Position numbers and translations under genes: made by a program. Below the pieces are notes generated by a model, which did no database searches, was not told the origin of the DNA, and worked only from the letters and a program-made list of their open reading frames with translations. Shown here one piece after another: positions 37,221-43,226 of a stretch of DNA of 64,000 bases. Source of the DNA: Gracilimonas sediminicola (GTDB taxonomy: Bacteria > Bacteroidota > Rhodothermia > Balneolales > Balneolaceae); the NCBI RefSeq assembly GCF_024320785.1, contig NZ_JANDBC010000001.1, positions 1,742,001 through 1,806,000 of the forward strand, given 5' to 3'. The stretch's first letter is position 1. Each line of letters starts with the position of its first letter.

Positions 37221-37586
37221 TTAATATGGGATAATCAGGTTGTTAGTTAAAACTGAGAAATGCTTTTTATCGAGTGTAGCGATTGGCACACCCTGTTGTT
37301 CAGCTGTAGCTGCAATAATCGCATCCGGTATTTTAATTCCGTGGCTTTTGTGGTATTTGCGTCTCAGGAATCCTGCTTTTCTGGCAATACCCTCAGTTAC
37401 ATCAATTTTGTTTACAAAGGATAAAAATGAGCTCAATTCATTCATTTCAGCCTTAGTCTTCACTCCGGAGTATAATTCTGAAACAACAACTACTGATGTA
37501 GAAACAGGCTGATTCTTTTGGATAAAGTGTACCGCATCTTTATTTCCCTTCAGGAAATCAATAAAAATATTGGTATCAACGATCAT
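37221..37586 (-). CDS. VapC-like PIN-domain toxin
   Basis: A 121-residue PIN-domain ribonuclease. Active-site acids are the Asp in MIVDTNIFIDFL, the Glu in VVSELYSG, the Asp in IKIPDAIIAATA and the Asp in IATLDKKHF. The frame also opens at ATG 37598, but ATG 37586 lies directly before the first beta strand and overlaps the antitoxin stop by 11 bases. Either start gives overlap with the antitoxin, hence coupled translation. The antitoxin-toxin order is the usual one. Confidence 0.88.
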   Translation of the reverse strand: MIVDTNIFIDFLKGNKDAVHFIQKNQPVSTSVVVVSELYSGVKTKAEMNELSSFLSFVNKIDVTEGIARKAGFLRRKYHKSHGIKIPDAIIAATAEQQGVPIATLDKKHFSVLTNNLIIPY

Positions 37587-37848
37587 CTTTGTCTGCATCT
37601 AAGCGTTTTACTCGCTCTTCCCAGTCTTCTCTGAGTACATCAACCCGGGGAATATCTTTCTTGTGTTTCCAAATACCGGCATAATCCATGATCGACTTTC
37701 TCTCTTTTCCGGATTCCATTTTCTTTTTAGCTACATACTCATCAATGGCTTCCCGGATAATATTACTCTGAGTTGTTTTGCGCTCACCGGAAAGCTGTTC
37801 GATAGCCTCTTTTTCTTTTTTGGTAAGATATATTTGTGTTCGAATCAT
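37576..37848 (-). CDS. Ribbon-helix-helix antitoxin (CopG/VapB-like)
   Basis: A 90-residue antitoxin. The N-terminal 45 residues form a ribbon-helix-helix: the strand MIRTQIYLTKKE, then the helices around AIEQLSGERKTTQSNIIREAIDEYVAKK. The charged C-terminal part (from about residue 50) should bind the PIN toxin. GAGGAG precedes the ATG as a good ribosome site. A strong palindrome 17-40 bases upstream of the start is the likely operator for autorepression. Confidence 0.88.
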   Translation of the reverse strand: MIRTQIYLTKKEKEAIEQLSGERKTTQSNIIREAIDEYVAKKKMESGKERKSIMDYAGIWKHKKDIPRVDVLREDWEERVKRLDADKDDR

Positions 37849-40031: not shown

Positions 40032-40934
40032 TTAGTTCATTTTAGCCTGAGCATCCATCACAATTTTCTCGATCTCTTCTTTCGAAATAAACTCTCTATT
40101 GTTGCAATACTGGCAAACCATTTCCTGCCCTTCCCCGTCCATTTCTTTCAGGTCTTCGAAGTTGAGCATAGCCAGTGCATTCAAAAAACGCTTGCGTGAA
40201 CAGCGACAGAAAAAGTCCACCGGCTGGCGGTTCAGCTCTTTTGCTTTCAGCGGTGATACAGCCTTATTCATGATTTCATCGATATACTGATCATCAGCCA
40301 ATAGTTCATCGATGGGCGGGAATGAACCCAATCGCTCCTGCAGCATATCAATTTGACCATCAGGGGCGCCGGGCAGTCGCTGTATCATCAGTCCGCCTGC
40401 TTCGGTAACGTTACCATCTTCATCAATGCCCACATCAGTAAGCAGTGCGGAAGGAATTTGCTCCGACTGCGCCAGGTAATGAGCTACATCACTATTCACA
40501 TCTCCTTTGATGAGCTCAATGGTACTGGTTTTAGGTTCGGCTTCGTTGTAAAGCACCTTTGAAAAAGTCATGATGCCTAAGCCGATGCCATCTCCAAGTT
40601 CTGTTTCAGGATTGGAGTAATCCAGTTCGGCGACCGGATTTTTAACGTACCCACGGATCTCGCCCACTGAATTTGCTTCAGCAACTATGAACCCAATCGG
40701 GCCGTCCCCATCCATACGCATTCGGATGCGCTCTTCCCCTTTAAGTTCAGAGGCCAGGAGCATGGTAGCTGTTAGCGCTCTCCCTAAGATGACGGTATTT
40801 AATAATGAAAGCTGGTGATTATCTCGTGCCGTTTTTACGACTTCAGTGGTTTTTACGACAGATATTTTAAAATGACCGTCCGTTGTGATTCCCTTGATAA
40901 GGCGGTCTTTGAAATTAAATTCTTCGATGTTCAT
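40032..40934 (-). CDS. hslO: Redox-regulated chaperone Hsp33
   Basis: A 300-residue holdase that is switched on by oxidation. The N-terminal domain includes LGRALTATMLLASELKGEERI. The C-terminal zinc site has the CxC pattern in FFCRCSRKR and the CxxC pattern in VCQYCNNREF, so the redox switch is intact. The frame is open from TTG 40976, but ATG 40934 (MNIEEFNFKDRLIKG) is the normal family start. TATCTTTG (40981-40974 on this strand) exactly fits the -7 box and would give a leader of about 25-35 bases. It is the first gene of a likely hslO-unknown-ndh transcript. Confidence 0.94.
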   Translation of the reverse strand: MNIEEFNFKDRLIKGITTDGHFKISVVKTTEVVKTARDNHQLSLLNTVILGRALTATMLLASELKGEERIRMRMDGDGPIGFIVAEANSVGEIRGYVKNPVAELDYSNPETELGDGIGLGIMTFSKVLYNEAEPKTSTIELIKGDVNSDVAHYLAQSEQIPSALLTDVGIDEDGNVTEAGGLMIQRLPGAPDGQIDMLQERLGSFPPIDELLADDQYIDEIMNKAVSPLKAKELNRQPVDFFCRCSRKRFLNALAMLNFEDLKEMDGEGQEMVCQYCNNREFISKEEIEKIVMDAQAKMN

Positions 40935-41049
40935 AGGAGTAAAAAAAATCTCTTTTATAGAAAAATGTATCCCCAAAGATACGCAGAAAATTACGTTTTA
41001 TTTGGGTGGATAGGGGCGAAAAATGTGGCGTTATATATGTGTTGGCTCA

Positions 41050-41241
41050 TCGCGGGCATTGACCCACCCCACAATCCCCGCCCGAGCGGGGAGGCTCGTT
41101 GGTTGGTTACTGAATTGGAAAAAGATTATACCCACCGGCAATAGCTTTAAAGAAACTGCAATTATAACCAAGGAGTCTTCCTCTCCGCGGGAGAGGAAAC
41201 AAAGGAGAGGGCCAATGCCCGCGAAGGCCCCAATACTTGCC
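41050..41241 (+). repeat. Long flanking repeat R1 of the DUF559 module
   Basis: A 192-bp repeat, present again at 41679-41872 in the same orientation. It starts with TCGCGGGCATTGACCC (41050-41065) and carries the near-exact reverse complement GGGCCAATGCCCGCGA at 41209-41224 (15 of 16 match). Inside are two hairpins: CCCCGC-CCGA-GCGGGG (41076-41091) and TTCCTCTCC-GCG-GGAGAGGAA (41178-41198). Similarity to R2 is high in the outer thirds and low in the middle. Confidence 0.88.
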
Positions 41242-41283
41242 ATTACCTCATTTTTTATAGTATTTAAAATAAAAGAGGGTACA

Positions 41284-41655
41284 ATGAAAAAGAGAATACC
41301 AATCATTCCATACAGGGAAGATCTTATAGCCAAAGCTCGCTGGCTTCGAAAAAACTCGACTCCAGGCGAAATCGAAATCTGGAAAGCAATTAAGAATAAG
41401 AAACTGCTCGGTTATAAATTCCGGAGGCAGCGTCCAATCCATCGTTTCATCGTTGATTTCTATTGCCGTGAACTCAGGTTAGCGATAGAGATTGATGGAA
41501 GAAGTCATGACTATAAAATTGAATATGATAAACAACGACAGGAAATAATTGAGCAATTGGGAGTCAGTTTTCTGCGGTTTAGTGAATCTGATGCTAAGCA
41601 TTATACGGAGTCGGTAGTGATGGAAATTGAGAGGTGGATACTGGAGCATAAGTGA
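41284..41655 (+). CDS. DUF559 endonuclease-like protein
   Basis: A 123-residue protein of the DUF559 family, which has a restriction-endonuclease-like (Vsr-related) fold. The order is typical: ARWLRKNSTPGEIEIWKAIKNK, then GYKFRRQRPIHRFIVDFYC, then LAIEIDGRSHD, with the Asp of FIVDFYC and the Glu of IEIDG as likely metal-binding residues. The frame is open from 41023 through repeat R1, but ATG 41284 (MKKRIPIIPY) is the family's usual start and has AGAGG five to eight bases before it. It lies tightly between two long direct repeats (gaps of 42 and 23 bases), with no other gene, so the unit looks self-contained. Whether it nicks DNA, and where, is unknown. Confidence 0.9.
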   Translation: MKKRIPIIPYREDLIAKARWLRKNSTPGEIEIWKAIKNKKLLGYKFRRQRPIHRFIVDFYCRELRLAIEIDGRSHDYKIEYDKQRQEIIEQLGVSFLRFSESDAKHYTESVVMEIERWILEHK

Positions 41656-41678
41656 GCTTTATAAAAGTGCAAAGCCCT

Positions 41679-41872
41679 TCGCCGGCATTAACCCACCCCA
41701 CAATCCCCGCCCGAGCGGGGAGGCTCGTTGGTTGGCTACTGAGTTCGGTAAAAGAATATACCCACTGGCAAGAGTCTTGCAATAAGCTGAAATATCACTA
41801 AGGAGTCTTCCTCTCCACGGGAGAGGAAACAAAGGAGAGGGTCAATGCCCGCGAAGGCTCCCAAACTTAGCA
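41679..41872 (+). repeat. Long flanking repeat R2 of the DUF559 module
   Basis: The second 194-bp copy, starting TCGCCGGCATTAACCC and holding GGGTCAATGCCCGCGA at 41839-41854. Both internal hairpins are kept; in the second the loop changed from GCG to ACG while the 9-bp stem stayed intact, as expected for a selected or recently copied structure. Confidence 0.88.
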
Positions 41873-41894
41873 CCACTCAAAAACCGAAACAAAA

Positions 41895-41924
41895 AAAGGG
41901 GCGCCTCAAACCGAAGCACCCCTT
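41895..41924 (-). terminator. Terminator after the leucine-type dehydrogenase
   Basis: Read on the minus strand, AAAGGGGTGC and GCGCCCCTTT form a stem with one mismatch, ending in a run of T. It lies about 28 bases beyond the stop of the 41952-43226 gene. The rest of 41656-41951 is repeat R2. Confidence 0.75.
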
Positions 41925-41951
41925 TCACTCACTCAAAATTCAGCAGCTGAA

Positions 41952-43226
41952 TCAATCGATAAAGCGCTTGTAAACTTCACCCAGCCTTCCGGATACATTG
42001 GCCTTGGATGAATATTTATTCTTGATATGCCCTATGGTTTTGATACGCTTTTCAGCCAGATCATTGGAAGCTACATGAGCAGGAATCCCATGGTCTTCCG
42101 AGTAATTCAGGATGTCGGTGATCGTGTTATAGATATTACCGGCATTTTGGAGAGCGCGGTCTTCGTTGTACCCTTCCAGTTCGCTGGCAATATTGATGAG
42201 TCCACCCGCATTAATCACGTAATCAGGAGCGTAGATAATGCCTTTGTCGAGCAGCTGCTGGCCGTGCTTGTCTTCATCATCCAACACGTTATTAGCTCCT
42301 CCGGCAATGATATCACACTTAAACTGATCCATGGTGTCGTCATTGATCACACCGCCTAAAGCACAAGGGGTATAGATGTCCACATCCAACCCATAAATGT
42401 CATCAGGGTCAACAAGTTCACCCCCCACTTCCTCAGCAAGTTCTTTAGCTTTGTCTTCGTAAATATCGCAGATGTAGAGCTTGGCTCCTTCTTTAGCTGC
42501 GTGACGTGCAAAAAAGGAAGCTACATTTCCGGCTCCCTGTAAGGCAATCTTCTTGCCCTCGAGTGAGTCGCTTCCATAAGCTTTTTGAGCACAGGCTTTA
42601 ACTCCCATATACACTCCATAAGCTGTTACCGGAGATGGGTTTCCACTTCCGCCCAGTGCTTTAGGGATGCCGGTTACATATTTCGTTTCAGAATAAATCC
42701 ATTCCATTTCGCGCTCAGTCATTCCCACGTCTTCTGCAGTGATGTACCGTCCGCCAAGTCCATCCACGAACCGGCCAAAAGAGCGGAATAAAGCTTCGGT
42801 TTTCTCGGTATGAGGGTCGCCGATGATCACAGCTTTTCCACCACCCAGGTTCAGTCCGGAAATAGCCGCTTTATAGGACATCCCGCGCGAAAGGCGCAGC
42901 ACATCTTTGATGGCGGCTTCTTCGGATTCATAATTCCACATACGGGTTCCGCCCAAAGCCGGGCCCAGCGTGGTATTGTGGATAGCGATGATAGCCTTCA
43001 GCCCAACTTCAGGGTCAGAGCAAATGACCACCTGCTCATGTTCGTAGTTGGCAAGCTGATTAAAAAGGGAAAAATTCGGGTTTTCTTCAGTCAATTTCTT
43101 GGAGTTTTTAACAGGTGCGTCAATCATTTTAACTTGGGTAAATTGTACAGATGGTCCGTTGTGGAACCGCTTCCAAAGTTCGGGATTTATTTGGCGGTTC
43201 TCAACCAAATAAATTGGCTCAATCAT
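41952..43226 (-). CDS. Leucine dehydrogenase-type Glu/Leu/Phe/Val dehydrogenase
   Basis: A 424-residue amino acid dehydrogenase that would deaminate branched-chain amino acids to 2-oxo acids. Key parts: GPALGGTRMW, the catalytic-lysine helix SRGMSYKAAISGLNLGGGKA, TAEDVGM, and the NAD site IALQGAGNVASFFA. This is the leucine/phenylalanine-type subgroup, not the glutamate type at the start of the window. It has an N-terminal extension of about 60 residues compared with Bacillus LeuDH (about 365). It is monocistronic: a terminator follows and recJ diverges on the other side. Confidence 0.9.
   Translation of the reverse strand: MIEPIYLVENRQINPELWKRFHNGPSVQFTQVKMIDAPVKNSKKLTEENPNFSLFNQLANYEHEQVVICSDPEVGLKAIIAIHNTTLGPALGGTRMWNYESEEAAIKDVLRLSRGMSYKAAISGLNLGGGKAVIIGDPHTEKTEALFRSFGRFVDGLGGRYITAEDVGMTEREMEWIYSETKYVTGIPKALGGSGNPSPVTAYGVYMGVKACAQKAYGSDSLEGKKIALQGAGNVASFFARHAAKEGAKLYICDIYEDKAKELAEEVGGELVDPDDIYGLDVDIYTPCALGGVINDDTMDQFKCDIIAGGANNVLDDEDKHGQQLLDKGIIYAPDYVINAGGLINIASELEGYNEDRALQNAGNIYNTITDILNYSEDHGIPAHVASNDLAEKRIKTIGHIKNKYSSKANVSGRLGEVYKRFID

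Follow-up and report, generated by a model that had tools for sequence, protein, structure and literature searches.

What is a small nuclease gene doing between two long and similar repeats in the genome of Gracilimonas sediminicola, and do the gene and its repeats belong together? The locus lies in a window of 64,000 nucleotides (the whole stretch of DNA analysed, G000:C1:1742001-1806000, where G000 is the 3.57 Mb host genome), from which the order hslO, upstream repeat (R1), DUF559 gene, downstream repeat (R2) and Glu/Leu/Phe/Val dehydrogenase gene (gdh) can be read directly. R1 (41050-41238, plus strand) and R2 (41679-41868, plus strand) have the same orientation and are 88% identical over 191 aligned columns. 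The gene between them (41284-41655, plus strand) starts with ATG and spans 372 bp, that is 123 amino acids and a stop codon, while the neighbours hslO (HSP33; 40032-40937) and gdh (41952-43226) both lie on the minus strand. An earlier, sequence-only reading had already placed the gene between two same-orientation repeats, as is indeed the case, and had left 42 and 23 bases to spare; the 23 bp between stop codon and R2 are correct, but the gap from R1 to the ATG is 45 bp. Its statement that the unit holds no transposase is borne out, since the ORF that lies between R1 and R2 is the DUF559 gene and the neighbours are hslO and gdh; this gene gives no Y1_Tnp match, and matches DUF559 plus, below its cut-off, MTES_1575. 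Elsewhere in the window (37221-37848, minus strand) overlapping small ORFs resemble, in translation only, a PIN-domain toxin and an antitoxin.

Judged by its sequence, R consists of a short module of about 30-45 nt and an inverted copy of it, the module being composed of a hairpin and a tail. In R1 the inverted module (iM, 41061-41091, minus strand) consists of the complement of a G-rich tail and the hairpin CCCCGCCCGAGCGGGG at 41076-41091, its pairing obtained by folding, and the forward module (M, 41180-41213, plus strand) of the hairpin CCTCTCCGCGGGAGAGG (41180-41196) and the tail AAACAAAGGAGAGGGCC, which points to the gene. In R2 the inverted module (41690-41720, minus strand) has the complement of its tail toward the gene and the hairpin CCCCGCCCGAGCGGGG at 41705-41720, followed by a forward module (41810-41843, plus strand) with the hairpin CCTCTCCACGGGAGAGG and the tail AAACAAAGGAGAGGGTC. 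Each R thus carries two strong hairpins, of which CCCCGCCCGAGCGGGG is identical in R1 and R2 and CCTCTCC-R-CGGGAGAGG differs in its loop base, in agreement with the conserved stem and varying loop described before. The 16-bp inverted ends that had been assigned to each repeat are present (41050-41065 and 41209-41224 in R1; 41679-41694 and 41839-41854 in R2) but imperfect within a copy, at 15/16 positions in R1 and 14/16 in R2 (counted by eye), and the perfect 16-bp match is that of the left end of R1 with the right end of R2. Across 12 aligned R copies of the window family RNAalifold places 36 pairs, for nine of which one or more copies are changed at both positions, hairpin 1 contributing one such pair in one copy; as the covariation term for these copies is +0.22 kcal/mol, covariation adds no net support. 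R copies from families unrelated in sequence nevertheless follow, by eye, a common plan of outer inverted ends, hairpin, inner inverted stretch, variable spacer and mirror image. The recurring unit is the hairpin-plus-tail module and not the 190-bp repeat.

Several candidate identities of the repeat were rejected. A known structured RNA is not indicated, as window positions 40900-42000 give no Rfam match up to E 1. The GTAG tag is absent from R1 and R2; R1 also lacks CTAC, which occurs once in R2, in the spacer at 41736. The repeat is not dispersed in its own genome, where BLAST finds just R1, R2 and one 43-bp copy of the forward module of R1 (93% identity, G000:C2:391729-391771). Concerted evolution of R1 and R2 is likewise unsupported, the R2 of G000 being nearest to that of G005 (88.7%) and its R1 nearest to that of G007 (86.4%), against 79.8% for R1 versus R2.

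The protein belongs to DUF559 (PF04480) with 103.4 bits against a Pfam cut-off of 20.6 (E 8e-30). Its earlier description as a Vsr-like nuclease agrees with its sequence, which places it in a Vsr-like, PD-(D/E)xK nuclease family; of the profile matches to solved proteins the best is 3HRL (DUF559, E 5e-28), followed by 3R3P ('Mobile intron protein', E 1.6e-5), which we take to be the homing endonuclease I-Bth0305I, and by PvuRts1I (E 0.003). Residues R22, E29, D58, E69 and D71 are, among others, invariant in 14 sequences, a pattern in keeping with a predicted PD-(D/E)xK site. In Caulobacter, VsrA carries a DUF559 domain and is needed for the SOS response that some of the cells devoid of a cytosine methyltransferase show, and its authors read it as a mismatch-repair endonuclease (PMC12907096, accessible part). 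R2 contains at 41680-41687 the stretch CGCCGGCA, which fits YGCCGGCR, the target site of the methyltransferase that is linked with VsrA in Caulobacter; this may be chance.

In order to see how far the arrangement extends, DUF559 genes were compared in related genomes and across phyla. PF04480 is present in 20 of 37 relatives, with up to seven matches per genome. Of the 66 rows, including the window's own, 63 were used after three weak ones were dropped, and one locus without upstream flank leaves 62, two weak partial matches among them (G036_C300 and G013_C2_493262). When 450 bp upstream were compared with 450 bp downstream at a threshold of at least 40 bits, flanking repeats were found at 47/62 DUF559 loci versus 0/61 control positions, the controls being pseudo-gene positions within the same loci. 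Direct repeats of at least 80 bits occur in 37 of the 62 own-locus comparisons versus 51 of 3782 cross-locus pairs, and inverted repeats of at least 80 bits in none of either kind at these loci. In the class of about 200 bp the repeats extend from about -290 to -90 and from +20 to +230 relative to the domain, and agreement between the two copies at a locus ranges from 68% to 99.5%. A profile search of genome contigs with a 14-row DUF559 alignment confirmed at least 566 loci, and the best 80 of these span Bacteroidota, Cyanobacteria, Planctomycetota, Thermotogae, Nitrospirae, candidate phyla and others. Among the 71 with 450 bp on each side, 53 have flanking repeats of at least 40 bits, compared to 1/139 controls. 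No flanking repeat reaches 40 bits at the remaining 18/71 cross-phylum loci and 15/62 relatives' loci, and both Chloroflexi loci fall below this level (72 of the 80 loci compared). The window locus exemplifies a kind of one-gene element that is very widespread, and the bracketing recurs across phyla. Repeats and gene, proposed earlier to form a unit, are met together at many different loci; the repeat is not unique to the window, the DUF559 genes of relatives are bracketed, and the window lineage sits at several loci rather than a fixed one.

The form of the bracket varies. Whereas the window has doublets (iM-M-gene-iM-M), a simple M-gene-iM bracket is common among the other loci, for example with CCCCTC-loop-GAGGGG-TTAGGGGTG toward the start codon and its mirror image after the stop. 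A generic version of the module lies near 47 of the 80 sampled loci (33 are without) and on both sides in 27, arranged as M|gene|iM in 25, as iM|gene|iM in two and as iM|gene|M in none, so that the tails point inward in 25/27. Outward tails were seen by eye at two Pontibacter fetidus loci (L243 and L246), in Flavobacterium tibetense (L155) and in Synechocystis (L183). On the usual carriers DUF559 is rare, the window protein matching 43 of 72,556 plasmid records and two of 50,697 phage records. Six of the 43 plasmid hits were inspected by eye, without a control, and five have hairpin modules on both sides, a Sphingomonas plasmid showing the full R-gene-R; a Sinorhizobium plasmid has an inverted pair on the downstream side only.

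The variety of the module follows the lineage of the nuclease, also between unrelated loci. This emerges from 9328 locus pairs whose fetched stretches contain no homologous flanking ORFs, after two loci were dropped as duplicates of relatives' loci (L088 and L154) and three relatives' rows as fragments; pairs without a BLAST match were assigned 30% identity. The flanks are alike at 50 bits or more in 61% of the 129 pairs with at least 70% protein identity, in 10% of pairs at 60-70% and in 3% at 50-60%. Below 50% identity the three bins give 0.1-0.6%, or about 0.3% when their 4609 pairs are pooled. The Mantel-type correlation, not corrected for kinship, is rho 0.39 and is reached by 0/500 shuffles. 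Within single genomes, modules are shared by 6/7 pairs of nucleases at 60% identity or more versus 1/82 pairs below. In Pontibacter fetidus, two nucleases that are 75% alike have one module variety and a third (40-42%) has another; one module of each of the first two matches gene-distant modules (e.g. L244 and L251) over 42 nt, and the variety of the third likewise occurs away from its gene.

Modules are also dispersed beyond the gene. A strict module pattern yields 661 matches, a few of them overlapping, in 25 genomes all picked for having DUF559, versus 16 for the reversed pattern. Okeania sp. (L142), with several copies in tandem beside its DUF559 gene, accounts for 393 of the 661, and Nostoc for 12 of the 16 reversed matches, the forward signal there (19) not being clear. 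In 60 genomes of one family there are 410 module matches, and their number correlates no more than moderately with that of DUF559 genes (rho 0.51, p 4e-5, uncorrected for kinship); the four genomes without DUF559 have 0, 1, 1 and 0 matches, the median being 2.5. Adjacency was counted in 26 of these genomes, with 136 of the 410 modules and 68 of the 81 DUF559 genes (at least one gene, at G097:C58, left out). Among the matches listed, 12/136 modules lie within 300 bp of a DUF559 gene and 9/68 genes have such a module; neighbouring matches form seven +- pairs spaced 63-106 bp, ten -+ pairs spaced 43-258 bp and, around a DUF559 gene, a +- pair spaced 413 bp. As most of the listed modules are far from any DUF559 gene, other enzymes may move modules.

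Sites that are filled in one species and free of the gene in another were compared over 20 stretches, of which six were aligned and 17 BLAST-screened for R (four in both), with one filled stretch (L232) left out. The solo repeats and empty sites whose search had been suggested by the sequence-only reading do exist, as solo R in G006 and G008 and as gene-free sites between fadI and fadJ. Among ten congeners, the fadI-fadJ site is filled in three (G000, G002 and G009, with R-gene-R or more and a single DUF559 lineage), has R or part of it without the gene in four (154-281 bp of R in G001, G004 and G008, one module in G005) and has neither in three (G003, G006 and G007). In the window's own genome this site (G000:C1:1723700-1726200, L230) holds an array R-R-R-gene-R, in which R is multiplied upstream of the gene. 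R is kept in the gene-free genomes in 0/5 cases at a site of G000 (G000_C1_426380), in 0/1 at one of G001 (G001_C19) and in 1/4 at one of G009 (G009_C32). At the window's own hslO-gdh site the element is present in G000, G005 and G007 and absent from G004; the latter is rejected as a clean empty site, as other sequence stands in place of the element. Some loci are fixed across several species, hslO-gdh in three genomes and fadI-fadJ in three. Where a single-R site is set against R-gene-R, a whole R lies on each side of the gene, and the comparisons of filled and empty sites show no clean target-site duplication. The spread of one lineage over three species at fadI-fadJ makes loss by recombination at least as likely as gain, and single-R sites in general fit loss through recombination equally well. 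The DUF559 tree requires 45 changes of locus label over 60 rows, with a floor of 39 by label count, but is poorly resolved and therefore weak evidence on lineage versus locus. Two of the seven sites shared on both sides hold distant lineages (G001_C27/G009_C176/G017_C166 and G002_C7/G021_C2). In Pontibacter, six of ten fetched stretches were aligned (L259-L262 left out), one locus being compared in five genomes and two further loci in two genomes each, and a clean insertion of a solo module was rejected for want of a clean junction. By eye, a module hairpin in P. fetidus (L250 versus L253) appears to be split by an insert with its own module pair and inverted ends and with CCTCCAGGGAGG on both sides, possibly a nested insertion into the hairpin.

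The co-occurrence of gene and repeat at so many loci suggests that the two may travel together as a minimal mobile unit. At slightly better than an even chance, we lean towards a REPtron-like partnership in which a Vsr/PD-(D/E)xK-type nuclease, and not a Y1 transposase, is paired with REP-like modules on which it would act. The nuclease would recognise its own variety of the module, either in double-stranded form or as a hairpin that extrudes from a single strand, and nick or cut there; repair of the break, primed by module homology, could then copy the gene with its modules, or modules alone, into new sites. Recombination between the direct copies of an R-gene-R unit would delete the gene and leave a solo R. 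In favour of this reading are the recurrence and polarity of the bracket, the match of module variety and nuclease lineage, the dispersed modules, the polymorphic fadI-fadJ site and the Y1 genes with repeats of their own in the same genomes. Against it count the many modules away from DUF559, the R copies of G008, which has no DUF559 match, the loci without repeat or generic module, the outward tails, the bracketed GIY-YIG genes and the rarity of DUF559 on plasmids and phages. The bracketing itself stands and generalises strongly, and we infer that a module-specific nuclease driving such a cycle fits it best.

A different account would treat the repeat as target and not as partner: the modules would be moved by other means, and DUF559, as a homing-like parasite, would cut module doublets so that the gene and one R are copied into a solo R by break repair. 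One site does show a single R as well as R-gene-R, a solo R stands in G008 where no DUF559 was found, the listed modules are mostly away from DUF559 and the profile match to 3R3P leads to what is presumably a homing endonuclease. A general target, however, would not predict module varieties matched to the nuclease lineage across unrelated loci and within genomes, and the simple M-gene-iM brackets represent inverted and not duplicated targets. We consider this account rather unlikely. For the window alone, and compatible with any of the readings, independent solo R's beside hslO and gdh could have been joined by a rearrangement. A solo R of the window family adjoins hslO in G008 and another adjoins gdh in G006, genomes in which a distance of some 34 and 57 kb separates hslO from gdh; R-gene-R with similar spacing is on the other hand usual in the genus at unrelated loci, which makes a joining of this kind decidedly doubtful.

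Even less probable is that DUF559 acts in mismatch repair (VSP-type) or as a restriction-like housekeeping nuclease, with the hairpins as ordinary terminators or insulators around a short gene. The Vsr-like family and the authors' reading of Caulobacter VsrA (PMC12907096, accessible part) would suit such a role, but paired repeats are nearly absent at the control positions (1/139 and 0/61), the spread is patchy, with 0-7 genes per relative genome at many loci, and the modules are dispersed with a conserved tail.

The genomes concerned also contain other small nuclease genes. Y1_Tnp is matched in 23 of the 37 relatives, ten times in the window's genome, and 12 Y1 loci from relatives (one with 67 bp downstream) were compared. 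The view that RAYT or other Y1 (IS200-like) transposases move the modules, with the DUF559 gene as a passenger, could draw on this abundance, but it is the least probable of the alternatives, as 5/12 Y1 loci have direct repeats (at least 50 bits) of their own, one weak match of 44.6 bits alone links the flanks of the 12 Y1 loci with those of 63 DUF559 loci, and G014 carries DUF559 genes and no Y1 match. At four Y1 loci (L273, L275, L276 and L280) the direct repeats are 189-267 bp long and 77-84% identical, of about the length of the DUF559 repeats and of different sequence. Small GIY-YIG genes were intended as a negative control, 30 loci being fetched, 22 with short ORFs taken and two without a flank removed. 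They turned out to be bracketed at 13 of the resulting 20 loci, and the claim that bracketing is specific to DUF559 was dropped. A tRNA gene is close at all eight GIY-YIG loci picked by eye for a tRNA scan. Seven loci (L284, L286, L287, L289, L290, L292 and L299) lie directly after tRNA-Leu, -Met or -Gly with the 3' part of the tRNA repeated past the gene, a layout like that of a one-gene integrative element. A narrow CGTC-type motif occurs on both sides at 1/20 GIY-YIG loci, and GTCA[TC][CT]C, a motif chosen after the flanks had been read, at 6/20 compared to 0/62 DUF559 loci and 0/33 control positions. The six (L288, L296, L297, L298, L301 and L302) are CGTC-REP-like, and a tie of DUF559 to CGTC REPs was rejected on the count of 0/62. 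The bracketing principle extends beyond DUF559, as Y1 and small GIY-YIG genes in these genomes frequently have repeats on both sides as well, though of other kinds. Several small nuclease genes therefore share the arrangement here, and each has a separate class of repeat.

From these parallels a broader proposal may be put forward tentatively, at somewhat less than an even chance, namely that DUF559 proteins, although no transposases, supply the mobilising activity so far missing for much of the non-GTAG REPs across Bacteria, copying hairpin modules together with their own genes by targeted nicking and break repair, and that small GIY-YIG proteins would do likewise for CGTC-type REPs and tRNA 3' ends, under a general principle of one nuclease fold for one REP class. 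Literature searches on REP, Vsr, homing and mosaic elements returned nothing linking DUF559 with repeats; subscription literature lay mostly outside their reach, and an earlier description is possible. The RepRanger paper (PMC12306157) contains no word starting with nuclease, RAYT or transposase. REP-like palindromes are common among bacterial repeats, and a lineage-matched nuclease partner would give the untagged REP class a concrete and testable candidate enzyme. Genes whose annotation stops at 'DUF559' or 'endonuclease domain-containing protein' would also gain a role from such a partnership, which might in addition provide small nickases directed at hairpins.

Compared to known systems, the element resembles free-standing homing endonucleases such as I-Bth0305I (presumably 3R3P) in its profile relation (E 1.6e-5) and in its patchy spread over many loci, but the window has no visible intron or intein, and the gene has complete modules on either side where a homing gene would split a single recognition site. 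RIME are elements of Rhizobium and CIR are repeats of Caulobacter; a Sinorhizobium DUF559 locus (L182) has downstream an inverted-pair element which, by its looks, we take to be RIME-like. CIR repeats are mentioned in the accessible part of PMC10969869. Caulobacter VsrA has a DUF559 domain in common with the window protein (PMC12907096, accessible part), whereas the direct neighbours of the window gene are hslO and gdh; in that paper 'palindrom' occurs 0 times and 'repeat' twice. The accessible part of a 2013 survey (PMC3733652) describes CGTC REPs as apparently having no transposase dedicated to them and defers the study of untagged palindromes. With both, the window's family shares dispersed palindromic modules, often dimers (PMC3733652, same part), and it differs from the CGTC REPs in that GTCA[TC][CT]C stands on both sides at 0/62 DUF559 loci. 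The likeness is greatest to REPtrons (RAYT/REP, BIMEs and REPINs), in which a single gene is bracketed by short hairpin modules that are also dispersed as solo and paired copies, and in which, according to the same accessible part, enzymes are repeat-specific where several REP families coexist. The differences lie in the predicted enzyme, a PD-(D/E)xK Vsr-like nuclease and not a Y1 HUH transposase, and in the modules, which have a G-rich tail and, in R1 and R2, no GTAG. Of the homing-like minimal system proposed by the sequence-only reading, the solo repeats and gene-free sites are real, but the recurring unit is the short module and the closest logic is that of REP/RAYT rather than of classical homing, since the gene is enclosed by complete copies.
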